DNA of 64,000 bases from Xanthomonas bonasiae (lineage in GTDB: Bacteria; Pseudomonadota; Gammaproteobacteria; Xanthomonadales; Xanthomonadaceae). Made by a program: the position numbers and the translations under genes. Below the pieces are notes generated by a model that made no database searches, had not been told where the DNA came from, and was given only the letters and a program-made list of their open reading frames with translations. Of this stretch, positions 12,779 through 64,000 are shown piece by piece (within the stretch, counting starts at the first letter, position 1; the number at the start of each line of letters is the position of its first letter). Location: positions 62,001 to 126,000 of the forward strand of contig NZ_JAFIWB010000005.1 of NCBI RefSeq assembly GCF_017163705.1. The letters are read 5' to 3'.

Positions 12779-12794
12779 GGGTGGCGGCCTGCGG

Positions 12795-13355
12795 GGCCGG
12801 GTGAGGATGCGGGCGCAGCCTCGCGCGCCCAACTCCGCGAGGCGCTTCGCGCCGTACCCTCACCCCAACCCCTCTCCCGGCGGGAGAGGGGCTAGTCGGC
12901 TGTTCCCTTCTCCCCTCGGGAGAAGGTGGCCCGCAGGGCCGGATGAGGGTACGGGCGCAGCCTCGTGCACCCAAACACCGCGAGACGCTTCGCGCCGTAC
13001 CCTCCTCACCCCAACCCCTCTCCCGGTGGGAGAGGGGCTAGGGCTGCTCCCTTCTCCCACCGGGAGAAGGTGCCCCATAGGGCCGGATGAGGGTACGGGC
13101 GCAGCCTCGCGCACCCAACTCCGCGAGGCGCTTCGCGCCGGACCCTCACCCCAACCCCTCTCCCGAGGGGAGAGGGGCTAGTCGGCTGTTCCCTTCTCCC
13201 ATCGGGAAAAGGTGCCCCGCAGGGGCGGATGAGGGTACGGGCGCAGCCTCGTGCACCCAAACACCGCGAGTCGCTTCGCGCCGGACCCTCACTCCACCCG
13301 TCTCGCGGTGGGAGAGGGGCTTAGGCCGTTCCCTTCTCCTTGCGGGGACATGGCT
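12795..13355. repeat. Four tandem copies of a ~142-bp intergenic repeat
   Basis: Anchoring on GGGCGCAGCCTCG, copies lie at 12811, 12953, 13097 and 13239, a period of 142-144 bp. Each unit contains two hairpins, CCCTCTCCC/GGGAGAGGG and CCTTCTCCC/GGGAGAAGG, separated by 3-nt loops that differ between copies. The fourth copy is decayed. The CTCACCCCAACCCCTCTCCC-type core is a widespread intergenic repeat in xanthomonads and related bacteria. Reading frames through it are by-products. Confidence 0.9.
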
Positions 13356-13528
13356 CCTTTCGGGGGACGGTGGCCCACGGGGCCGGACGACGCATGGCGA
13401 AGCTTCGCGCACCGGAGCCGCCGTGGCCGGCTCCGGTGCGCATTGCGGCCACCGGGATCCGGCGGCGTCATTGCCAATTCAGCAATCTGCGGCACAATCC
13501 GGGTTCTCTCAGCCTGCGGTCCCTCTCC

Positions 13529-13846
13529 ATGCGCCTACCGATCGCGTTGCTCCTGCTCGCCAGTCTCTCCGCCTGCACCTGGGTGCCGATGGCGCCGGAA
13601 GGCAAGACCGTGCGCGTACTGCCGCCAGGGCAGGCGCCGGCCGGCTGCGAGAAGCGGGGCGAGGTGGTGGTGTCGGTGAAGAGCAACGTGGGCTTCTACC
13701 AGCGCAACCCGCTGCGGGTGCGCGAGGAACTGGAGACCCTGGCGCGCAACGAAGCCCCCGGCGTCGGTGCGAATACCGTGCAGGCGATGGGCGAACCGGT
13801 CGACGGCGACCAGCGCTACGGCGCCTATCAGTGCAGCGTTCGCTGA
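13529..13846 (+). CDS. DUF4156 lipoprotein
   Basis: The product is 105 aa from the ATG at 13529. A lipoprotein signal peptide ends in LSAC (Cys16), with TW after the lipidated cysteine. The mature part has the DUF4156 pattern (CEKRGEVVVSVKSNVGFYQRN, then LETLARNEAPGVGANTVQAMG), seen in small enterobacterial and xanthomonad lipoproteins. The function is unknown. It probably sits in the inner or outer membrane facing the periplasm. It is a single-gene unit between the tandem repeats and oleA. Confidence 0.87.
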   Translation: MRLPIALLLLASLSACTWVPMAPEGKTVRVLPPGQAPAGCEKRGEVVVSVKSNVGFYQRNPLRVREELETLARNEAPGVGANTVQAMGEPVDGDQRYGAYQCSVR

Positions 13847-13948
13847 ACCGGTTAAGCCATACGCTCTGTTCCAATTTGTTAAAGATGCGGTAAAACCGGG
13901 CAGCCGCTAGAATTGGCGCCCCTTCGCCTTATCCCGGCGTACATCTCG

Positions 13949-14965
13949 ATGCTCTTCAACAATGTCTCCATCGCGGGACTGGCGCATATCGATGCGCCGC
14001 ACACGCTGACTTCCAAGCAGATCAACGAACGCCTGCAACCGACCTACGACCGTCTCGGCATCCGCACCGACGTGCTCGGCGACATCGCCGGCATCCACGC
14101 GCGGCGCATGTGGGATGCGGACATGCAGGCGTCCGATGCGGCCACCCTGGCCGCGCGCAAGGCGATGACCGACGCGGGCATCGACGCCGGCCAGGTCGGG
14201 CTGCTGGTCAATACCTCGGTCAGCCGCGACTACCTGGAACCGTCCACCGCCAGCATCGTCTCCGGCAACCTGGGCGTGGGCGAGGAATGCATGACCTTCG
14301 ACGTCGCCAATGCCTGCCTGGCCTTCATCAACGGCATGGACATCGCGGCGCGGATGATCGAGCGCGGCGAGATCGACTATGCGCTGGTGGTGGACGGCGA
14401 GACCGCCAACCTGGTGTACGAGAAGACCCTGGAGCGGATGACCTCCCCGGACGTGACCGCACAGGAATTCCGCGACGAACTGGCCGCGCTGACCCTGGGC
14501 TGCGGCGCCGCGGCGATGGTGATGGCGCGCGCCGAGCTGGTGCCCGACGCCCCGCGCTACCGCGGCGGCGTGACCCGCTCGGCCACCGAGTGGAACACCC
14601 TGTGCCGGGGCAACCTGGATCGCATGGTCACCGATACCCGCATGCTGCTGATCGAGGGCCTCAAGCTGGCGCAGAAGACCTTCATCGCCGCCAGGCAGGC
14701 GCTGGGCTGGGCGGTGGACGAGCTGGACCAGTTCGTGATCCACCAGGTCAGCCTGCCGCACACCCAGGCCTTCATCAAGAACTTCGGCATCGACCCGAAG
14801 AAGGTGATGACCATCTTCGGCGAGCACGGCAACATCGGTCCGGCCAGCGTGCCGATCGTGCTGAGCAAGCTGCGCGAACTGGGGCGCCTGAAGAAGGGCG
14901 ACCGGATCGCGCTGATGGGCATCGGCTCGGGCCTGAACTGCTCGATGGCCGAGGTGGTCTGGTAG
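13949..14965 (+). CDS. oleA: Olefin biosynthesis thiolase-like condensing enzyme OleA
   Basis: The product is 338 aa from the ATG at 13949, matching the length of Xanthomonas campestris OleA. The catalytic cysteine lies in DVANACLAF (Cys123, equal to Cys143 in the published tagged numbering), the general base is Glu97 in DYLEPST, and the His and Asn of the oxyanion site are in IHQVS and HGNIGPASVP. OleA condenses two long-chain acyl-CoAs head to head to a beta-keto acid, the first step of long-chain olefin synthesis. A TAGAAT element lies about 35 bp upstream. The partner genes oleB, oleC and oleD follow further on, with other genes between them. Confidence 0.97.
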   Translation: MLFNNVSIAGLAHIDAPHTLTSKQINERLQPTYDRLGIRTDVLGDIAGIHARRMWDADMQASDAATLAARKAMTDAGIDAGQVGLLVNTSVSRDYLEPSTASIVSGNLGVGEECMTFDVANACLAFINGMDIAARMIERGEIDYALVVDGETANLVYEKTLERMTSPDVTAQEFRDELAALTLGCGAAAMVMARAELVPDAPRYRGGVTRSATEWNTLCRGNLDRMVTDTRMLLIEGLKLAQKTFIAARQALGWAVDELDQFVIHQVSLPHTQAFIKNFGIDPKKVMTIFGEHGNIGPASVPIVLSKLRELGRLKKGDRIALMGIGSGLNCSMAEVVW

Positions 14966-51747: not shown

Positions 51748-52037
51748 CGCCAGTCCTTCCGTTGGATCGCCTCGGCATGCACGCCAGCACGGCCGCGGTG
51801 TGCGCGTTCGCCGGCCCTGTTCCCCGCGACTGCCGGCCTGCGCGCTTGTCGTGCAGACGGGGGTCGCCGTGTGCGGCTAGTCTATGACGACGGCGGCGCG
51901 CGCGTCAGCCGCTGCCGATGGCGGCTTGCGACCACGACCGGCAATCCTGTCCCGATTCCTCGATGAGGCCAGCCGCGGCGCGCACGCTTGCGACGGCCCG
52001 AGACGATGCACTGCCGGATGCGCGGCGAAGACGCGCC
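51748..52037. other. Intergenic region, no gene seen
   Basis: The region upstream of the antiporter start should hold its promoter. No repeat, terminator or credible gene is visible. Confidence 0.35.
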
Positions 52038-53006
52038 TCAGCGCTCCGACGGCCCGCTCTCGTCGTAGCCGCGCGGGGTGAACAGGTCCGGCTGGATCAG
52101 TTCGATGAAGGCGCGCGCCTGCGGCGACAGGTACTTGCCCTTGCGCACCACCACGCCGTAGCTGCGCGACGGGAAATAGTCGCCCAGCGAGCGCGTGGCC
52201 AGCTTGCCGCGGTCGGCCTCGGTGACGCAGATCGAGCTGACGATGGAAATGCCCATGCCCATCGCCACGTACTGCTTGATCACCTCCCAGCCGCCCACTT
52301 CCAGCGCCACCGTGTACGGCACCCGCGCCTGCTGGAACACCAGGTCGACCAGGCGGTAGGTCACCTGGCGCTTGGGCGGCAGGATCAGCGGATACGGCGA
52401 CAGGTCGTGCAGGGTGAGCTTGGGCGTGTTCGCCAGCGGGTGGTCGCGTGGGGCGATCAGCAGTTGTTCGAAGCGGTACACCGGCGCGTAGCTGAGGTCG
52501 GCCGGCACGTCGAGCATCGAACCCACCGCCAGATCCACCGCGTCCTCGCGCAGCAGCTCGGTGCCGTCGGCGCTGATCGCGTTGTGCAGGGTCAGGCGCA
52601 CGTCCGGGTGGCGCGCGCGGAAGTTCTCCACGATCTTCGGCAGCAGGTACAGGATGGTGGAGCTGTTGGCGGCGATGTTCAGTTCGCCGGCGTCCAGCCC
52701 GCGCGCCTTCTCGCGGAAATCGGCCTCCAGCCGGTCCAGGCTTTCCACCAGCGGCTGCGCCATTTCGTACAGCAGCTGGCCCTCGCGGCTGGGGATCAGG
52801 CGCCGTCCGCTGCGCTCCAGCAGCACCACGCCCAGTTCGCGCTCCAGCGCCTGCAACTGCAGGGTCACCGCCGGCTGGCTGACGAACAGCGCCTCAGCTG
52901 CCCGTGAGACCGAACCCAGGCGCACGGTCTGGCAGAACGCGCGCAGCGGCTTCAGCCGGTCGGATTTGTAGGGAAAACGCGGGGTTGCGGTGCCGCGCGT
53001 GGGCAT
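52038..53006 (-). CDS. LysR-family regulator next to aceBA (CysB/Cbl-like)
   Basis: The product is 322 aa. The winged helix (LGSVSRAAEALFVSQPAVTLQLQALE) follows an N-terminal extension that begins MPTRGTATPRF. The effector domain is of the CysB/Cbl sort (LNIAANSSTILYLLPKIVENF, MGMGISIVSSICV). It is divergent from aceB with 108 bp between start codons and a LysR-type box at 53052-53067. Control of the glyoxylate shunt or a linked acetate/fatty-acid response is the likely role, by position only. Confidence 0.9.
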   Translation of the reverse strand: MPTRGTATPRFPYKSDRLKPLRAFCQTVRLGSVSRAAEALFVSQPAVTLQLQALERELGVVLLERSGRRLIPSREGQLLYEMAQPLVESLDRLEADFREKARGLDAGELNIAANSSTILYLLPKIVENFRARHPDVRLTLHNAISADGTELLREDAVDLAVGSMLDVPADLSYAPVYRFEQLLIAPRDHPLANTPKLTLHDLSPYPLILPPKRQVTYRLVDLVFQQARVPYTVALEVGGWEVIKQYVAMGMGISIVSSICVTEADRGKLATRSLGDYFPSRSYGVVVRKGKYLSPQARAFIELIQPDLFTPRGYDESGPSER

Positions 53007-53051
53007 GATGTGACAACTATAAGGTGTACTTATTTAATGCATTGATAAAAC

Positions 53052-53067
53052 TGTATTGTCAAATACA
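53052..53067. promoter_or_regulatory. LysR-type box TGTATTgtcaAATACA
   Basis: A 6-bp perfect inverted repeat around GTCA gives the classic T-N11-A form. It lies in an AT-rich patch (53013-53070) between the divergent LysR and aceB genes. Confidence 0.6.
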
Positions 53068-53114
53068 TGCTGCGGAAGCACGGTGACAGCCCGGAAACAT
53101 CGAGGAACCCCACC

Positions 53115-54758
53115 ATGTCCGCCGCCGCCTTCGCCGCTTCATCCCCGTCCGCCGAACGCTCCACCCCCGGCATCACCCTGACCGCCTCGCTGGCCGGCCA
53201 GGACGCCCTGCTGCCGCCGGCGGCACTGGCCTTGCTGGTGTCGCTGCACCGGGCGATCGAACCCGAGCGGCAGGCGCGGCTGGCGGCACGCCGCGAACGC
53301 CAGGCCTGGTTCGACGGCGGCGGCCTGCCGGACTTCCGCGCCGACACCCAGGCGATCCGCGATGGCGACTGGCGCGTGGCACCGCTGCCGGCCGCGCTGC
53401 AGGACCGCCGCGTCGAGATCACCGGCCCGACCGATCCGAAGATGGTCATCAACGCGCTGAACTCCGGCGCCAAGGTGTACATGGCCGACTTCGAGGACTC
53501 GACCGCGCCGACCTGGCGCAATCTGGTCGCCGGGCAGCGTGCGCTGGCCGAGGCGGTGGCCGGCACGCTGACCTTCAGCGCGCCGCCGGCGCGCGACGGC
53601 AGCGCGGGCAAGCGCTACGCGCTCAAGCCCTACGACGAGCAGGCGGTGCTGATCGTGCGCCCGCGCGGCTGGCACTTGGACGAAAAGCATGTGCTGGTCG
53701 ACGGCCAGCCGCTGGCCGGCGGCCTGTTCGACGCGGCGCTGTTCGCCTTCCACAACGGCCGCGCGCTGCTGGCCAAGGACCGCGGCCCCTACCTGTACCT
53801 GCCCAAGCTGCAGTCGATGGAAGAGGCCGCGCTGTGGGAAGCCGCGCTGTCGCACATCGAGGCGATGCTGGGCCTGCCGCAGGGGCAGATCAAGGTCACC
53901 GTGCTGATCGAGACGCTGCCGGCGGTGTTCGAGATGGACGAGATCCTGCATGCGCTGCGCGAGCGCATCGTCGGCCTGAACTGCGGCCGCTGGGACTACA
54001 TCTTTTCCTACCTGAAGACCTTCCGCCGCCACCCCGACCGGGTGCTGCCCGAGCGCGGCCAGGTGACCATGACCCAGCCGTTCCTGAAGGCGTATTCGGA
54101 ACTGCTGATCCGCACCTGCCACCGCCGCGGCGCGCATGCGATGGGCGGCATGGCCGCGCAGATCCCGATCGGCCACGACGAGGCGGCCAACGAGCAGGCG
54201 ATGGCACGGGTGCGCGCGGACAAGCTGCGCGAAGTCACTGCCGGTCACGACGGCACCTGGGTCGCGCATCCGGCGCTGATCCCGATCGCCCGCGCCATCT
54301 TCGACGAGCACATGCGCACGCCGAACCAGCACGACGTGCGCCGCGAGGACGTGCAGGCCGACCGCGACACGCTGATCGCGCCGTCCACCGGCACGATCAC
54401 CCGCGCCGGCTTCGAGGGCAACATCGAAGTGTGCGTGCGCTACCTGGCGGCGTGGCTGGACGGCAACGGCTGCGTACCGATCCACCACCTGATGGAAGAC
54501 GCGGCCACCGCCGAGATCAGCCGCAGCCAGCTATGGCAGTGGCTGCACGTGGGCGGCCTGCACCTGGACGACGGCACCGCGATCGACTTCGCGCTGTTCG
54601 ACGCCTGCATGCGCCAGCTGCCGGCGCGCCTGGGCGAACGCGCGCTGCTGCCCGGCGGCAACCGCCTGGACGATGCCATCGCGCTGCTGGACACGCTGAC
54701 CCGCAGCGAGGACTTGGCCGAATTCCTGACCTTGCCGGCTTACCAGATGATCGAGTGA
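53115..54758 (+). CDS. aceB: Malate synthase A
   Basis: The product is 547 aa from the ATG at 53115 (GAGGAA upstream). An ATG at 53067 falls in the LysR box and is unlikely. Family segments include [14 protein letters not shown], the active-site [46 protein letters not shown] and the catalytic Asp in [15 protein letters not shown]. It condenses glyoxylate with acetyl-CoA to malate. The isoform is A (aceB) rather than G because of its size and motifs. It is paired with aceA 143 bp downstream. Confidence 0.97.
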
Positions 54759-54766
54759 TTGGAGCC

Positions 54767-54796
54767 GGGAGTGGGGAATCGGGAATGGGGAATCGT
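54767..54796. repeat. Short GGGAAT-type microrepeat between aceB and aceA
   Basis: The unit GGGGAATCGGGAAT is repeated with small changes (GGGGAATC at 54773 and again at 54787). This kind of repeat is frequent between genes in xanthomonads. Confidence 0.6.
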
Positions 54797-54901
54797 GAAA
54801 GCGACATTCCTGCGCCTGACCTCTTCCGTGCCTTCCATGCTTTTCGTCCGAAACACCGCTCCACCGTTTCATCGCCGTATCCATTCCGAGGAGAACGCAA
54901 G

Positions 54902-56197
54902 ATGAGCACCACGTTGCAGACCGCCGAACAGATCCAGCACGCCTGGGACACCGATCCGCGCTGGGCCGGGATCGCCCGCAACTACACCGCCGCCGACGTG
55001 GTGCGCCTGCGCGGCACCGTGCATGTGGAGCATTCGCTGGCCCGGCTCGGTGCCGAGAAGCTGTGGAAGTACCTGCACGAAAAGGACTTCGTCAACGCGT
55101 TGGGCGCGCTGACCGGCAACCAGGCGATGCAGCAGGTCAAGGCCGGGCTCAATGCGATCTACCTTTCCGGCTGGCAGGTCGCCGCCGATGCCAACCTGGC
55201 CGGGCAGATGTACCCGGACCAGTCGCTGTACCCGGCCGATTCGGTGCCGGCGGTGGTCAAGCGCATCAACAACACGCTGCTGCGCGCCGACCAGCTGCAC
55301 CACGCCGAGGGCAAGGACGAGATCGACTTCCTGCAGCCGATCGTGGCCGATGCCGAGGCCGGTTTCGGCGGCGTGCTCAACGCCTTCGAATTGATGAAGG
55401 CGATGATCGAGGCCGGCGCGGCCGGCGTGCACTTCGAGGACCAGCTGGCTTCGGTGAAGAAGTGCGGGCACATGGGCGGCAAGGTGCTGGTGCCGACCCG
55501 CGAGGCGATCGAGAAGCTCAACGCCGCGCGCCTGGCCGCCGACGTGCTGGGCGTGCCGACGCTGTTGGTCGCGCGCACCGACGCCGAGGCCGCCGACCTG
55601 GTGACCAGCGACATCGACCCCAACGACCGCCCGTTCACCACCGGCGAGCGCACCGTCGAAGGCTTTTTCAAGACCAACAAGGGCCTGGACCAGGCGATCA
55701 GCCGCGGCCTGGCCTACGCCCCGTATGCCGACCTGATCTGGTGCGAGACCGGCAAGCCGGACCTGGAATTCGCGCGCCGGTTCGCCGAGGCGATCCACGC
55801 CAAGTTCCCGGGCAAGCTGCTGGCCTACAACTGCTCGCCAAGCTTCAACTGGAAGAAGAACCTGGACGACGCGACCATCGCCACGTTCCAGCAGGAGATC
55901 GCCCGCTACGGCTACAAGTTCCAGTTCATCACCCTGGCCGGCTTCCATGCGCTGAACTACTCGATGTTCAATCTGGCGCACGGCTATGCGCGCCGGCAGA
56001 TGAGCGCCTTCGTCGAGTTGCAGGAAGCCGAGTTCGCCGCCGCCGATCGCGGCTTCACCGCGGTCAAGCACCAGCGCGAGGTCGGCACCGGCTACTTCGA
56101 TGCGGTGACCCAGGCGATCCAGCAGGGCCAGTCTTCCACCACCGCACTGAAGGGCTCGACGGAAGAAGAGCAGTTCCACGGCGAAAAGGCCGCCTGA
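54902..56197 (+). CDS. aceA: Isocitrate lyase
   Basis: The product is 431 aa with a GAGGAGA site before the ATG. The catalytic cysteine is Cys188 in KKCGHMGGK. Other family segments include [38 protein letters not shown] and the final [11 protein letters not shown]. It splits isocitrate to glyoxylate and succinate. With aceB it forms the glyoxylate shunt for growth on acetate or fatty acids. A terminator follows at 56244-56269. Confidence 0.98.
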
Positions 56198-56243
56198 CCT
56201 GCAGCCAGGCGTCCATTGCTTGCCGATCCCCATGGGAGGGGAG

Positions 56244-56269
56244 AGCCCGGGTTCGCCCGGGCTTTTTTT
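56244..56269 (+). terminator. Intrinsic terminator after aceA (UUCG tetraloop)
   Basis: AGCCCGGG-TTCG-CCCGGGCT (56244-56263) is followed by a run of T to 56269, ending the aceBA unit. Confidence 0.94.
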
Positions 56270-56490
56270 GCCTGCGCGATGGCGCATGTGCCGACAGCAG
56301 TACGGTGTCTACGAGTTACGACAGGACTGGGTGCGGAAACGCCGTACCGGCGGGCCGCCAACGCCCGATTTCGGATCATTTCGCGATCTCCGCGCGTGCG
56401 AGATTGGCTGTGATCGCATCAGCGCCGATTCGTTCAGGTGCTATGCTTTGCGCAAGATGGCGGGCGACGCCAAGAGCAGTAGGGGGCTGG

Positions 56491-57537
56491 ATGAGCTGCG
56501 ACAGCGCCGCGTCCAATGCACGCGAGACAATTCCGACGGTTGCCGTGGTTGCCCCCAAGCCCAATGAGCTGGCGGTGCTGACCGCCGCGGAACTGCGCCT
56601 GTTCTCCGCGTTCGGCCGTTCGCGCACGGTGCGTGCCGGCGACGTGCTGTTCCGGCGCGGCGACGGCGGCAGCGCCATGTTCGTGATCAGCAGCGGCGTG
56701 ATCGACCTGGATTTCGGCGAGGACCTGGTCGTCAAGCATCTCGGGCATGGCGAATTCTTCGGCGAACTCGGCCTGTTGATCGGCAGCCACATGCGCAGCG
56801 CCGACGCCATCGCCGCCAGCGACGGCGTGCTGGTGGAACTGGACCACGACGACTTCCAGCGCCTGGTGGAGCGCGACCCGGGCCTGGTCGCTTACTTCCT
56901 GCGCCGCACCATCATGCGCGTGGTGATGAACGAGCAGACCCTGATCCGCCAGCTGCGCCGCCGCAACCACGACCTGGAAGCGGCGCTGGACAACCTCTAC
57001 GCCACCACCCACCAGCTCAGCCAGACCGAGGAGCTGGTGCGCACCGACGAACTGACCGGCCTGCACAACCGCCGCGGCCTGATCCTGCGCCTGCAGGAAT
57101 GCCGCCGCGACGGCCGCTCGCCCGGTCCCGGCCTGCTGCTGATCGATTGCGACCGCTTCAAGCGCATCAACGACGAGCACGGCCATCTGGTCGGCGACCG
57201 CGTGCTGCAGAACGTCGCCAACATCCTGCGCTCCGTCGCCGGCCAGGACGACATCGCCTGCCGCCTCGGCGGCGACGAATTCTGCCTGCTGGTGTCCACC
57301 GGCAACGCGGACGATCTGCGCCGCATCGGCGAGTTCGTGATCGCCACCGTGCAGAACCTGCTCGGCGTGCCGCATCCGCTGCCGCACATCTGCCCGGTCA
57401 GCATCGGCATCAGCCGGGTCGATCCGCAATCCGACTGGAACGACTGGTACGCCAACGCCGACGCCGCGCTGTACGAGGCCAAGCGCCTCGGCGGTAACCG
57501 GTTGTACTGGCACGACCTCGCCTCCGGCTCGCGCTGA
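56491..57537 (+). CDS. Cyclic-nucleotide-binding diguanylate cyclase (cNMP-GGDEF)
   Basis: The product is 348 aa from the ATG at 56491 with an AGGGGG site. The N-terminal part (about 30-140) is a Crp-like cNMP-binding barrel (LFRRGDGGSAMFVISSGVIDL, GHGEFFGELGLLIG), followed by a helical linker and a GGDEF domain (about 175-345) with GGDEF at 260-264. The inhibitory RxxD site just before it is missing (QDDIA). It should make c-di-GMP in response to bound cyclic nucleotide. It is followed 26 bp later by a class III cyclase-like gene, so the pair is probably one transcript. Confidence 0.93.
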   Translation: MSCDSAASNARETIPTVAVVAPKPNELAVLTAAELRLFSAFGRSRTVRAGDVLFRRGDGGSAMFVISSGVIDLDFGEDLVVKHLGHGEFFGELGLLIGSHMRSADAIAASDGVLVELDHDDFQRLVERDPGLVAYFLRRTIMRVVMNEQTLIRQLRRRNHDLEAALDNLYATTHQLSQTEELVRTDELTGLHNRRGLILRLQECRRDGRSPGPGLLLIDCDRFKRINDEHGHLVGDRVLQNVANILRSVAGQDDIACRLGGDEFCLLVSTGNADDLRRIGEFVIATVQNLLGVPHPLPHICPVSIGISRVDPQSDWNDWYANADAALYEAKRLGGNRLYWHDLASGSR

Positions 57538-57563
57538 GCCCACCAAGCACCCTCGAGCTGCCC

Positions 57564-60164
57564 ATGAACCACGCCCACCAGCCGCAGCCCGACGCCCCGC
57601 AGCTGCGGACGTTGCTGCTGACCGACCTGTGCGATTCGATGGCGCTGGTGGAGCGGCTGGGCGACGCCAACGCCGCCGAACTGTTCAAGCTGCACGATCA
57701 CCTGGTGCTGGAACTGCAGCAGCGCTGGCGCGGGCGCCTGATCGACCGTTCCGACGGCCTGCTGCTGCTGTTCGAACGGCCGATCGACGGCCTCGGTTTC
57801 GCCCTGGACTACAGCCGCGGCCTGCACGCGCTGGGCAAGCAGCGCAAACTGGAACTGAAGGTGCGCGCCGGCCTGCACGTCGGCGAGGTGCTGACCTGGC
57901 GCAACAGCGACGCCGCGGTGCAGGTCGGCGCCAAGCCGCTGGAAGTGGAGGGCCTGGCCAAGCCGACCGCGGCGCGGCTGATGACCCTGGCCCGCCCCGG
58001 GCAGATCCTGCTGTCGGCGGTGGCCGAGTCGCTGACCCACCGCGCCGCGCGCGAACTGGGCGAGCGCGGCGAGCGCCTGCTGTGGAAATCGCACGGCCGC
58101 TGGCGCTTCAAGGGCGTGCCGACGGCGCAGGAGATCTACGAAGTCGGCGAGATCGGCAACACCCCGCTGCGCGCGCCGAAGCCGACACCGAAGGCGTGGC
58201 GGGACATCCCGCTGTGGCGTCGCCCGGCGGCGCTGCTGGCGGAGGTCGGTCTGATCGCTGCGGTCGCGGTCGGCGTCTGGTTCGTCACCCGTCCGCAGCC
58301 CGCGATCGCCTTCGCCGAGCGCGACTGGGTGGTGGTGGGAGATCTGCGCAATCTGACCGGCGACACGCTCTACGACGACACGATCGAGACCGGGCTGCGC
58401 ATCAGCCTGGAGCAGTCGCGCTATGTCAATGTGCTGGCCGATGCGCGCGTGCGCGAGGCGCTGAAAATGATGCAGCGCGACGCCGGCGTTGCCGTGGATC
58501 GCAAACTCGGCGCGGAAATCGCCCAGCGCACCGGCGCGCGTGCCTTGCTGCTGCCCACGGTTTCCGACGCGGACGGGAAGGTGCGGATCAGCATCGAAGT
58601 GGTCGACCCGGCGACGGAGGCCACGGTCGTCACCGAGTCCGCGACGGCGCGTGGCCCGGGGTCGGCGGTCGCGGCGTTGGGGGAGGCTGGCGACTCGTTG
58701 CGCAAGGCGTTCGGCGAGAGCGTGGCGTCCATCAAGAAGAGTTCGGCCCCGCTGGAACGGGTGACGACCGACAAGCTCGATGCGCTGCGCGCGTTCTCGC
58801 TGGGCCAGAAGTCCTACGCCGAGCAGAATCTGCAAGCGGCGGAAATGCAGTTCAGGCAGGCGCTGAATATCGACCCGAACTTCGCCATGGCCAAGATCGG
58901 CCTGGCGCGCGTGGCCTACAACAAGACCGACGTGCTCAGCGCGCAGCAACAGATGGGCATGGCGATCGAGGACACGGGCAGGCTGACCGACCGCGAGCGC
59001 CTCTATGCCATGGCGCAAATGGCGCTGTTCCGATGGGAAAAGGATTATCCCGGCAAATGGGTCGCCCTGTCGTCCCTGTATCCCGATTATCACGTTGCCG
59101 CATTCAATGTGGCCACGAGCATGCGCGACGGTGCCCGCTTCAAGGAGATGTTCGAATACAGCAACCGCGCCGCGGCAACGCAGGCAGTCACCCGTCCGGT
59201 CGCATTGAGCTTCAGGGCGATCGCACGCTCGGCCCTGGGCGATGTGGCCGAAGCCGAGCGCGACTATCTCCAGGCCGAAGCGTTGGGGTTCCGCAAGAAT
59301 TCCGTCGAATTTTCGCTGATCAAGGCGGCCGAATCGAAGTTCAAGGAAGCCGACGCGATGTTGCGTCCGGTTCCGGGAGAGCCGCCGTTCGCTAAAAACG
59401 AGCGGGCCGCCGCGAACCTCAATGTGATGGCGGATCAAGGCGAGTGGGAAAAGGCCGCGCAGCAGGCCGATGCGCTCAGGGCTGCGGTCGCCGATCCGCA
59501 TACGCCGTTCGAATGGGGCGCACGGACCTCCGTACTGGCGATCATGCGCCATACGTCCGACAGCAGGACGGTTCTGCAGGAAGCGCAGAAGCTGGTGACT
59601 CTGGCGGAAAACGGCCTGCACAACAGCGCCGGCCGGGCGCAGGAAGCGGTGGCGAATGCGGCGCTCTATGCGGGCTATGTCGCGGCCTGCAACGGCGATA
59701 TCGCCACTGCCCAGCGTGCATTGAAAGTGGCCAAGCCGATTGCCGACATCGCCCCCTATCCTCTGCTCAAGAATTCTTCGGCCATCGTCGAGGCCCGGAT
59801 CGCCATGCAGTCGGGAAAGCCCGACGCGGCGCTGGATATCCTGAAACCCTTCGATCAGCCCTGGGCGTTGACCTTGACCAAGGTCGAGCGGCTATCCGCC
59901 GAGGTGGCACTGGGCCGGGATGTGGGCGAGCAGCTCGCCTCCATGAAAACGTTGGCCTGGCGCGGTCGCGTCTACGCCGAATGGGCGGCCGAAAGGCCGC
60001 CCGTGATCGAATCGCTGTCGTCGCCGCAGCAACTCCTCAACGACAAAAAACCACCCAGCCAAGGCTCGCTTCGAACTGCTTCGCCAGAAGTTCCAGATTC
60101 GCTTCGATCTCTTCCTTGCTCGGGAGATTCACGCTCTCGGGCAAAATGCTCGGGTCGAGGTTGA
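57564..60164 (+). CDS. Class III cyclase-like/TPR membrane protein of a putative peptide modification system
   Basis: The product is 866 aa. Residues about 14-195 form a class III nucleotide cyclase-type domain (LLLTDLCDSMALVERLGD with metal Asp21, then DRSDGLLLLF with Asp64). The transition-state Asn is replaced (Pro134 before Arg138), so activity is doubtful. One transmembrane helix (about 222-242) follows, then a periplasmic sensor part (about 250-400) and TPR-like repeats (from about 410). The family matches what NCBI calls 'putative peptide modification system cyclase'. The last 40 or so residues are read antisense to the precursor gene (60037-60273), so the true end may be earlier. It is the first clue of the RiPP locus. 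Confidence 0.85.
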   Translation: MNHAHQPQPDAPQLRTLLLTDLCDSMALVERLGDANAAELFKLHDHLVLELQQRWRGRLIDRSDGLLLLFERPIDGLGFALDYSRGLHALGKQRKLELKVRAGLHVGEVLTWRNSDAAVQVGAKPLEVEGLAKPTAARLMTLARPGQILLSAVAESLTHRAARELGERGERLLWKSHGRWRFKGVPTAQEIYEVGEIGNTPLRAPKPTPKAWRDIPLWRRPAALLAEVGLIAAVAVGVWFVTRPQPAIAFAERDWVVVGDLRNLTGDTLYDDTIETGLRISLEQSRYVNVLADARVREALKMMQRDAGVAVDRKLGAEIAQRTGARALLLPTVSDADGKVRISIEVVDPATEATVVTESATARGPGSAVAALGEAGDSLRKAFGESVASIKKSSAPLERVTTDKLDALRAFSLGQKSYAEQNLQAAEMQFRQALNIDPNFAMAKIGLARVAYNKTDVLSAQQQMGMAIEDTGRLTDRERLYAMAQMALFRWEKDYPGKWVALSSLYPDYHVAAFNVATSMRDGARFKEMFEYSNRAAATQAVTRPVALSFRAIARSALGDVAEAERDYLQAEALGFRKNSVEFSLIKAAESKFKEADAMLRPVPGEPPFAKNERAAANLNVMADQGEWEKAAQQADALRAAVADPHTPFEWGARTSVLAIMRHTSDSRTVLQEAQKLVTLAENGLHNSAGRAQEAVANAALYAGYVAACNGDIATAQRALKVAKPIADIAPYPLLKNSSAIVEARIAMQSGKPDAALDILKPFDQPWALTLTKVERLSAEVALGRDVGEQLASMKTLAWRGRVYAEWAAERPPVIESLSSPQQLLNDKKPPSQGSLRTASPEVPDSLRSLPCSGDSRSRAKCSGRG

Positions 60165-60273
60165 ATCCATATTCGGCGAATGCCGCGACAGGATTCTGTT
60201 CCATGGCAGCGCGAAAGGCATCGTCGCTGGCGAGGCGTTGCAGCAGGGACCGTGCATTATCTAGTGTGGTCAT
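60037..60273 (-). CDS. Putative RiPP precursor with NHLP-type leader
   Basis: The product is 78 aa. The first half has the nitrile-hydratase-like leader pattern (LLQRLASDDAFRAAMEQNPV, AAFAEYGFNLDP), and the C-terminal part ends QFEASLGWVVFCR with a single Cys77. There is no signal peptide. The SagB-like gene 23 bp upstream is in the same direction, as expected for a precursor and its modifying enzyme. It converges on the cyclase gene with a 128-bp overlap (60037-60164). The core peptide and modification are unknown. It matches what NCBI calls a 'putative modified peptide'. Confidence 0.82.
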   Translation of the reverse strand: MTTLDNARSLLQRLASDDAFRAAMEQNPVAAFAEYGFNLDPSILPESVNLPSKEEIEANLELLAKQFEASLGWVVFCR

Positions 60274-60296
60274 TTAGTTTGCGCTCGTGGATGGTT

Positions 60297-61511
60297 TTAT
60301 TGCCCAAGTGACTGATGCGTCGCGATCAACGGCTTGGGATTCAAGTGTAGCGTGTTTTTCGTGGCATCAATGTTGCCGACGCCATTGGCGCCGATCACCA
60401 TGGTCGTGAGCGGGTCCAGCGACAGCAGTCGGCCGGCGTCGGTATCGTTGATGGCGGCCGTGTAGAACGCACCGAGATCGCGTTCCGTCGCCAGCAGGTA
60501 GAACGTCTGGCTCAGGTGGCCGGAGTCCAGCAGAACCGCCTTGTAGGCCTTGGGGTGGCGCCGGTATTTCCAATGGTGCCGATCCAGCCGCGCGACATGG
60601 AAGACGAGCGCGCTGGAATCGGCGAAGTAGGTTTGCCCGATGGTCAGGTCGGCGGCCAGCGTTCTGGCCTCGGCCTCGGTCAGGTCGATTATCTTGACGA
60701 GCTTGTGGGTGTCGGATTCATAGTGATAGAACCCTGGCGTCAGCCCTTCCACATCGATTATCAAGGGATATGCCTCGATCGGGTGCAGCGACCCGCCGGA
60801 AGGACTGGTGCGGCGTACGGCGACATGACCGGGTGCGATTTCCTCGGCCCCGATCGCGCCGAACGTGCCGAACAGCATGCGCGACAGTTCGGTCAGGGCG
60901 AGAGGGCGCGTCCGATCGAAATGCCGGGTGGTGCGCCTGGCACGCAGGACATCGGCAACGTCGCCTTGCAGTGTTTCGGCCGGAAGCGCTATCGAACCGA
61001 TCCCATCCTGGCGCTTCGGGAAATGCGCGGGAAGCGGGCCATACGTGGCAATGTGCTTGTCCAGGCGCGCGCGCTCGGCCGCATTTCCGTGTTCCCGGCT
61101 GCCCTCGTCGCCGACCACGCCCGACCACGCGCTCATGCGGTGATAGACGCTGGCCAGCGGATGCCATCCCACGGTTTCGAGCGTCGCCTGGCCGGCCAGG
61201 ATGGCGGCGCTTCTGGTGTCTGGAGCGTCGCAAAGAACGATCTCGTCCTCGATCATCCTGTCGATGAAGGACGCATCGCAGTTGTGCTTTCGCATGACCT
61301 CGCCGGCGTCGGTCCAGGAATTTCCCGGTAGCGAGGCGACGATGGCCAGCGCCTCGGGCGAAAGCGGAATGCGTTTTCCGCTGAGGGGACACAGCAGGGC
61401 GGTGGCGATGGTGGTATCGAGGACGACCGAGCCATTGAGCAGCGCGCTGATATTGGGGAAGAGCACGTCCCCGATTTCGATGATGCAGTGAAGCCTTCGG
61501 CGTAATTTCAT
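60297..61511 (-). CDS. SagB-like FMN-dependent dehydrogenase (putative peptide maturation dehydrogenase)
   Basis: The product is 404 aa. The N-terminal part (about 1-160) is family-specific, and the C-terminal part is a nitroreductase/SagB-type domain with the flavin motif RARRTTRHFDRTRPL, SPSGGSLHPIEAYPL, YHYESDTHKLVKI and the DSGHLSQTFYLLATERDLG region. SagB enzymes oxidise azolines to azoles in thiazole/oxazole peptides, but no YcaO cyclodehydratase is in the window. The target is probably the 78-aa peptide made next in the same unit. It is the 'putative peptide maturation dehydrogenase' type. Confidence 0.87.
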   Translation of the reverse strand: MKLRRRLHCIIEIGDVLFPNISALLNGSVVLDTTIATALLCPLSGKRIPLSPEALAIVASLPGNSWTDAGEVMRKHNCDASFIDRMIEDEIVLCDAPDTRSAAILAGQATLETVGWHPLASVYHRMSAWSGVVGDEGSREHGNAAERARLDKHIATYGPLPAHFPKRQDGIGSIALPAETLQGDVADVLRARRTTRHFDRTRPLALTELSRMLFGTFGAIGAEEIAPGHVAVRRTSPSGGSLHPIEAYPLIIDVEGLTPGFYHYESDTHKLVKIIDLTEAEARTLAADLTIGQTYFADSSALVFHVARLDRHHWKYRRHPKAYKAVLLDSGHLSQTFYLLATERDLGAFYTAAINDTDAGRLLSLDPLTTMVIGANGVGNIDATKNTLHLNPKPLIATHQSLGQ

Positions 61512-61790
61512 CTGGATTGGTTTCTGATCGCTGACGGTATGCGGGAGAACCTGGCCGACCCGACGCTGTGCCGCGCGCGATGGTGGGTCGATGACACGGC
61601 GTTTCCAGCGCTCGGGTCATGTGCACTGGCATACGATCAGTATGCCGAAGGATGTGGCCGAGGCGTGGGCGCGTTGGCAGCCGATCCGCAGGCACCTTGC
61701 CAGGCTTGCCGCACAACCGGCCATCGGTGCAGGCCGAGCGCGCCCGCCGGCGTCCTGGACCATGTCGGGAGCAGGGCGTCCTTCGCCGGT

Positions 61791-62015
61791 CGACCTATCG
61801 TGTTGCTGTGCCTGCGCGCGACGCAGGCGCAGTGGGGCGCGTTCGTGACCTCGGCGATCAACGAGGTGGATATCGAGCAGGCATTCGGCATGGACCCGTT
61901 GCGCGAAGGGCCGCTGGTGGTCTGCGGCTTCGGCTGGCGGGCGCCGGCGTTGACCACCGCGGAGTTCGATCCGGCCGGCGCGGTATGGCAGGCCAGCGTC
62001 GCCGGATCGCCCTGA
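61791..62015 (+). pseudogene. Remnant of a second SagB-like dehydrogenase C-terminus
   Basis: About 74 codons to the TGA at 62013-62015 resemble the intact dehydrogenase tail: WGAFVTSAINEVDIEQAFGM next to the intact LGAFYTAAINDTDAGRLLSL, both then DPL. The part before 61791 does not match in this frame and has no start. It lies on the other strand, 280 bp from the start of the intact gene. Alternatively it is a short independent gene. Confidence 0.5.
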
Positions 62016-62132
62016 CGAGCGCGCGCGGTGGCATGAGGCGCTTCAGTCAGTGCCAGCGAGCATGGCCGCCGCACTGGTGCAGCGCTCCTGCAGTTGCCTG
62101 CGGTGCCGTCCGCCGCCAGTCGTTGTCTGTGT

Positions 62133-62948
62133 TCAGTGCGCCTGGCTGTGCGCCGTTGCGGTTGCGGCCACAGCCGCTGCGTCGGGGGCGGCCGGCTTGG
62201 CTGGCGTGTCGCTATGTTCGAGCAATTCCAGACGCTTGTCGCCGGGCAGCCGATAGTCCAACTGCTCCTCCAGCGCATCCAGCGCGGCCACCTGCACGCA
62301 GAGCGCGTTGGCCCTGGCTTCCAGCGCCTTGCCGCGCGCGTCCATGCGCCGCTCCAGGTCCTTCTCCATCGCGTCGGTGCGTTTCTCGATGGCGTCGGCG
62401 CGGCCGGTGAACACCGCGAACATCACCCCGCGGGTCAGCGCGCCGGCCATCTCCTCTGCGGCGGCGCTGACGTCGGCTTCGAACGCCTTGTCGAACGGCT
62501 CCTTCTGCCATTGGCCTTTGCCGAGGGTGCGGTCAAGGTGGGCGAGGGCGGCGTCGCGGTGCCGCTCGAGCTTGCGCGCCTTGCTGCTGCTGCCGGTGAT
62601 GGCCTCGACCACGCCACCGAAGGCGTCGAAGGTGATGCCGACCACCTCGCGGGCGATGCCGGCCACTTCGGGCATCAGCGCCTGGGCGCCCTGTTCCATC
62701 TGCCGCAAGCGCTGGGCGTCGGCGCTGCTGAGCGGCTGCGCGACGCCGTCCACTTGCAGGCGGCCGTCATGCAGGAACACGGTCTTCGGCGTGCCGGCGC
62801 TGCGCGTCAGGGCGACGCCGGTCCGGTCGACGATGACGTCGTAAGGCGTGGAAAAGCCGCATTGCTGCGAGGAGAACTGCGGGCCGGCGCTGGCGCTGGC
62901 GGCGGCACCCAGCAGGGAGAGCGTACACACGGAAAGCAGCAGGCGCAT
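62133..62948 (-). CDS. DUF2884 (YggN-like) exported protein
   Basis: The product is 271 aa with a signal peptide (MRLLLSVCTLSLLGAAASASA). The family layout is visible: CGFSTPYDVIVDRTGVALTR, FLHDGRLQVDGVAQPLS, VGITFDAFGGVVEAITG and a helical C-terminal half with KLERHRDAALAHLDRTLGKG. It is periplasmic and of unknown function. It is transcribed alone on the minus strand. Confidence 0.9.
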   Translation of the reverse strand: MRLLLSVCTLSLLGAAASASAGPQFSSQQCGFSTPYDVIVDRTGVALTRSAGTPKTVFLHDGRLQVDGVAQPLSSADAQRLRQMEQGAQALMPEVAGIAREVVGITFDAFGGVVEAITGSSSKARKLERHRDAALAHLDRTLGKGQWQKEPFDKAFEADVSAAAEEMAGALTRGVMFAVFTGRADAIEKRTDAMEKDLERRMDARGKALEARANALCVQVAALDALEEQLDYRLPGDKRLELLEHSDTPAKPAAPDAAAVAATATAHSQAH

Positions 62949-63067
62949 GGCGGCGGTTCCTTTGACGATGACGGCAGCATCGGTGCTGAGCCGTGCCGTG
63001 TCGTCTGCGGGAAGTCAGGGTGCGGGAAGTCATGCCTGCACCGCGGCGCCGGCAAGCCCGCGCGGAT

Positions 63068-63574
63068 CTAGCTCGGACCCTCAGGCATCGCCCAGTGCTG
63101 GAGAAGGGGGCCTTGCGGACCGGCGACGGGATCGCTGGGCGGGAACGGCAGCTGGGCGATGCGCCGGATCGTTTCGGCGCTGGGCGCCTGCCGGCAGATG
63201 TCCCAGTCCTGACCGGCGGGATAGGCGCCGACCACCACGAAGTCGCTGCTGGCGGCGATGCAGCGATGGCCGGTACCGGCCGGCAGCAGCAAGGCGTCGC
63301 CGGCCGCCAGCGTGGTTTCGGGGCCGCCTGGGCCGCCGATGACCAGCCGCGCGCTGCCGCTGGCCACGCCAAGCACCTCGTGGGCAGTGGAATGGTAGTG
63401 GTGGTAATCGTAGATGCCATCGCGCCATTGCGGCGGCCAGCCGTGGGCGGCGAAGCGGCGTTCGAAGCCGGCGGCATCGCCCTCGCGTCCGGCTTGGCGG
63501 TACAGCAGGACCGGCAGGAACGGATGGTTGGGCACCCAATCGTGCGGCGGCAGCAGCCAGTGTTCCAGGTGCAT
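63068..63574 (-). CDS. Cupin-fold protein (YjlB-like)
   Basis: The product is 168 aa from the ATG at 63574, with GAGGA 7 nt before it. A longer open frame upstream lacks a site. The cupin core has YDYHHYHSTAHEVLGVASG (metal histidines), GSARLVIGG and LPAGTGHRCI. The fold binds a metal and could be a dioxygenase, an isomerase or a storage protein. The reaction is not known. It is read alone on the minus strand. Confidence 0.85.
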   Translation of the reverse strand: MHLEHWLLPPHDWVPNHPFLPVLLYRQAGREGDAAGFERRFAAHGWPPQWRDGIYDYHHYHSTAHEVLGVASGSARLVIGGPGGPETTLAAGDALLLPAGTGHRCIAASSDFVVVGAYPAGQDWDICRQAPSAETIRRIAQLPFPPSDPVAGPQGPLLQHWAMPEGPS

Positions 63575-63788
63575 CGGCGCGTCCTCGCGGCATGGTGTGG
63601 CGGGCAGCGGGCGGCCGCCGATGCGGATCATGCTAGCCAGGCCGCGTGGTCGCGGCGTCATGGCGCGATGCGGCGACATCGTCGCGGTGCACGTGCGCAT
63701 GCAGCGGTCGACACGGCAATCCCAACGCCATCCGCCGGCTTGCGACACGGCAGCCCAGGCGATATCGCCAGGGCTGCCGCTGCTTGCC

Positions 63789-64000
63789 TCAATGCAACGG
63801 TGCAGGGCCTGCGTCGGCACGATGGTGCGTGCCCAGGTCCCCGACCATGGCGGCGCTGGCGGCGTTCAGCCCCACCACCTGCACCTGCGCACCATGGCGG
63901 CGGAATTTCAGCACCACCTTGTCCAGCGCGCCGATGGCGCTGATGTCCCACAGGTGCGCCTGCGTCAGGTCGAGGGTGACCCGCGCCGGTGCGTGCGCAT
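63789..64000 (-). CDS. C-terminal STAS domain of a SulP-type transporter (5' end outside window)
   Basis: About 70 residues to the stop at 63789-63791 are visible: VTLDLTQAHLWDISAIGALD, KVVLKFRRHGAQVQVVGLN and AASAAMVGDLGTH. This is a STAS domain as found at the end of SulP sulfate/bicarbonate transporters, where it sits in the cytoplasm and regulates transport. The membrane part is outside the window, so a separate STAS protein cannot be excluded. Confidence 0.8.
   Translation of the reverse strand, partial: AHAPARVTLDLTQAHLWDISAIGALDKVVLKFRRHGAQVQVVGLNAASAAMVGDLGTHHRADAGPAPLH

Follow-up and report, generated by a model that had tools for sequence, protein, structure and literature searches.

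The nearest described relative of the locus examined here is a cyclic nucleotide pathway of Xanthomonas campestris (PMC3770947). As reported there, XC_0250 is an 886-residue protein that joins a class III cyclase domain (residues 32-191) to a tetratricopeptide repeat (TPR) domain (residues 413-625), and its residues 1-220 synthesize cyclic GMP (cGMP) in vitro. Deletion of XC_0250 reduces cGMP, biofilm and virulence in X. campestris. The linked XC_0249 protein carries a cyclic nucleotide monophosphate (cNMP)-binding domain that binds cGMP at 0.29 µM and a GGDEF domain, and its synthesis of cyclic di-GMP (c-di-GMP) is stimulated by cGMP. An apparent counterpart of this gene pair is encoded in a 64,000-nucleotide stretch of Xanthomonas bonasiae (contig NZ_JAFIWB010000005.1, positions 62,001 to 126,000; the whole stretch is hereafter called the window), where the cyclase gene adjoins genes for a putative precursor of a ribosomally synthesized and post-translationally modified peptide (RiPP) and for a SagB-type dehydrogenase. 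Our findings suggest that the peptide, its enzyme and the outer half of the cyclase protein (hereafter the receptor) are swapped as a block, forming a new peptide signaling system with many specificity groups.

The X. campestris pathway lacks a named input in the available text of PMC3770947, in which the TPR domain is termed uncharacterized; the available part of a 2019 review uses the same term (PMC8042644). The words ‘peptide’ and ‘dehydrogenase’ are absent from the main text of the former article as far as it was available, the accessible portions of PMC6341742 and PMC6637768 mention no link between XC_0250 and a peptide, and none was found in the open-licence PMC literature. NCBI models TIGR04509, TIGR04510 and TIGR04511 describe a ‘putative peptide modification system’; these numbers occur in no paper that we found in open-licence PMC, and the family-name phrase in PMC6537148 concerns another system. 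The name of the dehydrogenase family has also been used for SagB in graspetide loci (PMC8939145). In the Os1348-Os1351 cluster of Pseudomonas sp. Os17, an NHLP-clan small protein is likewise accompanied by a SagB-type dehydrogenase, and the authors found neither sagC nor sagD homologues (PMC7726476). That cluster differs from the locus in the window in having four genes without a cyclase, and in carrying an additional acetyltransferase and a HEXXH protein.

The initial annotation, made from the DNA letters, had placed three open reading frames (ORFs) in this region and assigned them to the three NCBI families. All three ORFs are present at the positions it gave, and an NCBIfam profile search returned every one of the three families above its cut-off. 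The receptor (57564-60164, plus strand) scores 950.3 bits against TIGR04510 over residues 11-810 (cut-off 400), the 78-residue NHLP-related precursor peptide (60037-60273, minus strand) scores 52.9 bits against TIGR04509 (cut-off 34), and the dehydrogenase (60297-61511, minus strand), which is of type B in the classification described below, scores 302.3 bits against TIGR04511 (cut-off 240) and 102.6 bits against TIGR03605 (cut-off 78.4). The pairing of a RiPP-like peptide with a SagB-type enzyme proposed at the outset therefore stands. The dehydrogenase gene lies directly upstream of the peptide gene, and the receptor gene converges on them from the opposite strand, such that the last 128 bp of the receptor gene and of the peptide gene are shared (60037-60164). 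As a consequence, the DNA for the peptide core also encodes the receptor tail on the other strand. Just upstream of the receptor gene is a plus-strand gene (56572-57537, start approximate) whose product resembles the solved chain 5h5o in its N-terminal cNMP part (E=1.8e-46) and TIGR00254, the GGDEF model, in its C-terminal part (115.1 bits).

Related loci were gathered from a search for relatives (32 loci) and from the best 80 of 467 named relatives, giving 113 with the window. Removal of eight loci with an identical receptor and of one (L064) whose receptor is spread over three frames left 104 distinct loci. The cNMP-GGDEF gene is present in 102 of these, the peptide in 102 and the dehydrogenase in 98. 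At 62 of 102 loci the receptor gene shares its 3' end with that of the peptide gene; these convergent overlaps reach 163 bp and commonly span 43-61 bp. The dehydrogenase was missed at four contig ends (L050, L062, L110 and L143) and at two disrupted loci (L151 and L152); the peptide was missed at L110, a short contig, and at L152. The initial annotation had named two outcomes that would speak against it, namely that the genes do not co-occur in other genomes and that the peptide is not conserved as a protein. Both points were checked: the counts above establish conserved co-occurrence of peptide and dehydrogenase with the cyclase, and the peptide is maintained as a protein, with ratios of nonsynonymous to synonymous substitution (dN/dS) of 0.06-0.34 in the pairs shown (at most six per type, from four types).

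The class III cyclase-like protein of the initial annotation is best read as a signaling nucleotidyl cyclase and not as a component of peptide modification; its apparent X. campestris counterpart makes cGMP, and the adjoining gene there encodes a cGMP effector (PMC3770947). In the available text of that article, the XC_0250 residues tested were D41, D71, L73, A150, L157 and A161. These are matched at a constant offset of 7 by D34, D64, L66, A143, L150 and A154 of the window receptor. D34, D64 and A143 are invariant across the 104 loci, and L66 is retained in 92, L150 in 84 and A154 in 100. The cGMP-contacting N-E diad of the cNMP-GGDEF protein retains its E in 102 of 102 loci and its N in 96. 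Thus, gene order, domains, active-site residues and an adjacent cNMP-GGDEF gene all agree, and the window pair looks like the counterpart of XC_0250 and XC_0249. Since the N-terminal half holds the residues of a proven guanylate cyclase, we discarded the possibility that it is a peptide-modifying cyclase; the names of the NCBI models assign the cyclase to peptide modification, whereas the evidence presented here makes it a receptor and signaling enzyme. What differs from the X. campestris pathway as described is the swapped sensor block reported below.

The receptor has a single dominant hydrophobic stretch at residues 223-241 (58230-58286, plus strand) with two arginines on its N-terminal side. 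A hydropathy scan placed the top-scoring segment at this position in 32 of 32 loci (1.7-2.6), compared with 1.0-1.8 for the best segment elsewhere. One membrane helix with this charge pattern predicts that the cyclase half is cytoplasmic and that the TPR half lies outside the inner membrane. Profile matches of the receptor are to solved TPR proteins and to class III cyclases.

Comparison of the window with its relatives reveals two histories within one locus. The cyclase half of the receptor (57603-58229, plus strand) has an identity that tracks species, being 92-98% identical over about residues 6-175 to 17 relatives of the same genus. For the 14 of these that belong to other types, the cNMP-GGDEF protein is 92-99% and the first ~175 receptor residues are 92-98% identical to the window, whereas the receptor from about residue 376 is 10-38% identical in four segments and the dehydrogenase 27-33%. 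With the three relatives of the window's own type, identity is 73-99% throughout. In the distance analyses, ‘sensor’ denotes the receptor from about residue 406, and residues 244-405 were treated separately as a linker. The 18 loci of the genus fall into six discrete types: the sensor is 63-99.8% identical in the 27 same-type pairs and 20-37% in the 126 other-type pairs, with none between. Corresponding values are 65-99.7% versus 27-60% for the dehydrogenase, 53-100% versus 16-45% for the peptide, and 82-100% within versus 52-77% between types for the linker. Regardless of type, identity is 90-99.7% for the cNMP-GGDEF protein and 86-99.2% for the cyclase half (to about residue 243).

The same pattern recurs beyond this genus. 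Among 20 loci of Xanthomonas sensu stricto, sensor identity is 50-98% in 61 pairs and 29-35% in 129 pairs, and four records named X. arboricola represent three types even though their cNMP-GGDEF proteins are 96.5-99.1% identical. Across all 361 pairs whose cNMP-GGDEF proteins are at least 90% identical, the sensor is below 40% in 253 and at least 60% in 93. The distance analyses draw on 96 complete loci, eight more having been left out because each misses one part. When cut at about 48% identity, the sensors of these 96 loci from the order form ~40 types.

Partial Mantel correlations, conditioned on the cNMP-GGDEF distance, were computed for the 96 loci with 300 permutations. Sensor and dehydrogenase distances correlate at 0.743 (permutation maximum 0.239), sensor and peptide at 0.587 (0.216), and dehydrogenase and peptide at 0.609 (0.129). 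The two halves of the receptor itself yield 0.047 (0.19), and the cyclase half and peptide 0.013. With one locus for each of the 40 types, sensor-dehydrogenase (0.546), sensor-peptide (0.384) and dehydrogenase-peptide (0.536) correlations persist, with 0 of 1000 permutations as high; the receptor halves give 0.021, a value attained in 413 of 1000. The TPR half therefore goes with the peptide and dehydrogenase and not with the cyclase half, a grouping that, like the swapped block and the scar described below, is absent from the initial annotation.

Trees are consistent with this division. They were built by a quick method from 40 of the 96 loci, picked by hand to include the genus, the type of the window and a range of further loci, and long end branches were flagged. 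In trees of the output parts the genus holds together (99) and a clade of the window's type is rejected (p 9e-81). The sensor and dehydrogenase trees do the opposite: the genus is rejected (p 1.9e-5 and 8e-4, respectively) and type B stands on one side of a branch (95 and 100). Synonymous distances rise block-wise in several pairs. For example, the window and L052 differ by 0.22 and 0.29 in the output parts but by 0.63 in the sensor, 0.74 in the dehydrogenase and 0.51 in the peptide. The pair of the window and L053 is a counterexample without a jump (output parts 0.22 and 0.16; sensor 0.21, dehydrogenase 0.19, peptide 0.08). Overall, the cyclase half and the effector follow the species, and the TPR half, peptide and dehydrogenase act as a block of their own that passes between species and also between genera, with the cNMP-GGDEF gene on the output side and outside the block.

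A trace of one such exchange is preserved in the window. Compared with its nearest type-24 relative (L039), the window shows a DNA match of 95.0% over 6646 bp from 52033 to 58665, no match from 58666 to 61803 (3.1 kb), and a match again at 91.4% from 61804 to 64000. The swapped portion of the receptor thus comprises the remaining linker and the TPR half (58666-60164, plus strand). The second match begins within the dehydrogenase gene of L039, on the window's plus strand and opposite to the window's own dehydrogenase, and the tail encoded at 61804-62015 is almost identical to the end of the L039 dehydrogenase. The plus-strand ORF at 61539-62015 was considered as an intact gene and rejected, because only its tail matches (residues 90-145 reach 80.7 bits against TIGR04511, below the cut-off) and this tail extends the flanking sequence found in relatives with a different dehydrogenase. 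It is a remnant of an older dehydrogenase. L053 matches the window across this scar, and L052 and L054 have the window's type without it. The simplest account is that the 3.1-kb block replaced a type-24 cassette in the ancestor of the window and L053, leaving the last codons of the old gene behind.

The leader of the peptide is conserved, and its C-terminal core differs by type. In the window the core ends in GWVVFCR, encoded in the 3' region of the gene at about 60040-60060 on the minus strand. This end is identical in the four genus members of the window's type; in the next type the three members end in GWIIFCR, GWIVFCR and AWIVFCR. In this comparison, start codons were set by a crude rule and some peptides, including that of the window, were trimmed at the N-terminus. 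All parts of the unit, the peptide, dehydrogenase and sensor among them, bear signs of purifying selection in the pairs shown; for the peptide, six pairs of the window's type give dN/dS of 0.12-0.34, a value that the overlap with the receptor gene can bias. Two or three peptides are encoded in 11 loci, with extra copies at L117 (6748-7893), L132, L133, L137 and L043. The leaders of these extra peptides differ from that of the main one while their cores are often of a similar kind, and some of those in L117 and L137 lie on the receptor strand.

Solved structural relatives of the window dehydrogenase include CyaGox, BmdC and McbC. Its K315-Y316 pair, presumably the catalytic Lys-Tyr pair of the SagB family, is invariant in 49 of 49 aligned dehydrogenases. 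The absence of a YcaO enzyme reported for the window was borne out and extends to the whole genome, where PF02624 gave zero matches at E 0.01. The locus shares the SagB/McbC-type enzyme family with thiazole/oxazole-modified microcins (TOMMs), but the genome holds no YcaO match and hence no known cyclodehydratase for azolines; TOMM chemistry was therefore rejected. The usual azoles being unlikely, the dehydrogenase probably works directly on the peptide. No SagB enzyme operating without YcaO was found in the open-licence PMC literature.

Since peptide, enzyme and sensor half share their inheritance and come in many alternative forms over one common output, a matched signal and receptor is the simplest function, and we consider a peptide-gated second-messenger circuit with specificity groups to be somewhat favored over its alternatives taken together. 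In the best reading, the modified RiPP would be the cognate ligand that gates cGMP and then c-di-GMP. The peptide would be produced with its NHLP-type leader, and the flavin dehydrogenase would oxidize its type-specific C-terminal core. The matching TPR half might then recognize the product outside the inner membrane, an event that would raise or lower the conversion of GTP to cGMP by the cytoplasmic cyclase half. The cGMP would bind the adjoining cNMP-GGDEF protein and so promote c-di-GMP synthesis, biofilm and related behavior. Inheritance and exchange of peptide, enzyme and sensor half as a cassette would keep them matched, with the output half common to all. The gene unit, its modular inheritance, the swap scar and purifying selection are observed directly; the sign of the effect and its use between cells are what we infer.

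Peptide pheromone systems of Gram-positive bacteria offer the closest parallel to this arrangement. The ComQXPA receptor varies in its sensor part, and agr invites the same comparison. For ComQXPA, the available part of one report describes striking polymorphisms and pherotypes (PMC4408185). As in these systems, the peptide, the modifying enzyme and the sensor part of the receptor co-vary in the loci surveyed, the output part is conserved, and several types exist among close kin. The differences are that the present host is Gram-negative, that pheromone activity is a prediction here, that a SagB-type dehydrogenase takes the place of ComQ or AgrB, and that a guanylate cyclase receptor takes the place of the histidine kinase. 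Whether the locus is a full Gram-negative counterpart of ComQXPA, with a modified RiPP pheromone, a transmembrane guanylate cyclase, ~40 types, cassette exchange and c-di-GMP output via a cGMP effector, is a nearly even call. If so, we know of no bacterial precedent for a guanylate cyclase circuit gated by a peptide. Its parts are known (three named families and a published cGMP pathway), but their union as a swappable signal-receptor cassette was not found in open-licence PMC, and there is a fair chance that this is a new class of circuit. The Xanthomonas cGMP pathway would then gain a name for its missing input, the candidate being the peptide and modifying enzyme encoded beside the receptor. 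Close relatives in Xanthomonas, Stenotrophomonas and Lysobacter would be split into separate communication groups. The proposal clearly predicts matched types of peptide and receptor, and it suggests what an orphan RiPP family and a SagB-type enzyme without YcaO may do, so that the chemistry and role of the enzyme become testable.

Several points weigh against this circuit. The peptide's role as ligand, its export and its modification are predictions, and the equivalence to XC_0250 is judged from architecture, adjacency and residue mapping. According to the available text of PMC3770947, the isolated cyclase domain shows activity in vitro and is enough to restore X. campestris biofilm; the TPR half is thus dispensable for basal activity, and the outer half probably tunes or restrains activity rather than creating it. 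Co-inheritance alone does not prove recognition, because types too diverged to recombine internally move as a block whatever their function. Type boundaries are not always sharp, as sensor identity falls at 40-60% in 15 of the 361 close pairs, and 12 mosaic pairs combine a dehydrogenase identity of 76-86% with a sensor identity of 40-45%. The cyclase half and the dehydrogenase are also weakly correlated once the cNMP-GGDEF distance is allowed for (0.166, against a permutation maximum of 0.181). Two loci (L059 and L060) carry cyclase, peptide and dehydrogenase with other genes upstream instead of an adjacent cNMP-GGDEF gene, and an NHLP-like peptide and dehydrogenase pair on Sinorhizobium meliloti pSymA lacks a cyclase match in the 17 kb read (E 1). 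No export signal is visible by eye on the window peptide. No exporter was noticed beside the loci read, although none of the 113 loci was screened with an exporter profile, and the two C39-type proteins of the genome are both on other contigs.

The lack of a visible export signal favors one of two rival explanations that we consider unlikely, and to a similar degree. The peptide could be a non-secreted cofactor or inhibitory subunit that serves redox or flavin self-sensing via the dehydrogenase, with types reflecting co-evolution of partners and no signaling between cells. The tail-to-tail overlap ties the receptor and peptide genes together, as such a role would have it, and the dehydrogenase depends on flavin and on an electron acceptor. 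However, the topology prediction puts the co-varying part of the receptor outside the inner membrane, so that the peptide would have to cross it anyway, and six discrete types in a single genus (18 loci) would be difficult to account for if there were no specificity between cells.

The other rival is an antimicrobial, bacteriocin-like RiPP cassette, in which the modified peptide would kill or inhibit neighbors, the TPR half would sense it or provide self-protection, and cGMP would be a stress output. Polymorphism of this kind is also typical of toxin-immunity cassettes. The nearest studied small protein is Os1348, to whose family (NF038399) the window peptide scores 36.2 bits, below the cut-off of 40, and deletion of Os1348 or of its SagB-type neighbor Os1351 lowered activity against B. 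subtilis (PMC7726476). This explanation is at odds with the fusion of the receptor to a cyclase that has a cGMP effector for a partner, and no exporter or immunity gene was seen to be kept with the unit. Also against it are two genomes of the genus, both small (G002 and G016), which are the only ones of 20 without the cyclase domain. They keep the effector, the cNMP-GGDEF gene (85% and 82%), and have no receptor, peptide or dehydrogenase match in 15 kb around it. Their DNA match breaks off where that gene ends and picks up again at window position 63810, which fits one deletion.

A recombination hot spot, in which the block diverges or moves for other reasons (for example, an outer half escaping phage or plant recognition) while peptide and dehydrogenase ride along, is improbable: the conserved flanks on both sides would permit exchange of any block between them, but in the pairs shown peptide, dehydrogenase and sensor are under purifying selection, and their distances remain correlated across 40 types.

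Counting only matches above cut-off, which 0 of 14 control genomes reached, TIGR04510 occurs in 32 of 60 relatives and, at family level, in 184 of 297 genomes. Draws of 369 genomes from the class contain TIGR04510 and TIGR04511 in the same five genomes, and TIGR04509 occurs in eight of 398 genomes of the phylum, all from this order and all with TIGR04510. If the cut-off is dropped, matches become more widespread: TIGR04510 reaches 57 of the 60 relatives and 8 of the 14 controls, and TIGR04511 reaches 76 of the 369 genomes and 4 of the 14 controls. As in the window, the dehydrogenase lies on the strand opposite the receptor in eight of the 96 loci.

Phage origin and plasmid carriage were considered and rejected. 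A PHROGs search with the three proteins (E 0.01) gave zero matches. A relative of the dehydrogenase is present in 57 plasmid records, all below 60% identity, and only one of these, S. meliloti pSymA, covers at least 80% of the query. At this plasmid locus (L182, 7461-11031), an NHLP-like peptide with a Tat-like N-terminus by eye is followed by a TIGR04511-like dehydrogenase; the Tat-like signal, a single case, suits a periplasmic site. A small Nif11-like ORF and a tetrapyrrole-methylase-like ORF just behind that dehydrogenase form, by eye, a possible second RiPP pair.

A few other loci are of note. In a metagenome-assembled genome of S. maltophilia (L165), a second receptor-like ORF (12702-14819, plus strand) stands just behind the dehydrogenase and matches the profile only from the membrane helix onward (214-823). 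It has no cyclase domain and is thus an orphan sensor half, perhaps the leftover of a displaced cassette. In X. phaseoli pv. phaseoli (L152, 8911-16910), receptor, peptide and dehydrogenase are fragmented over 8 kb, and in X. vasicola (L151, 11899-12588) only the start of the dehydrogenase was matched. A record titled Bacillus subtilis strain SK7B5 (L136) holds a full Lysobacteraceae-type unit and is probably a mislabelled or contaminated assembly. Upstream of the unit in the window, the interval 52038-56197 contains genes for malate synthase A and isocitrate lyase, along with a LysR-type regulator gene at 52038-53006 (minus strand).

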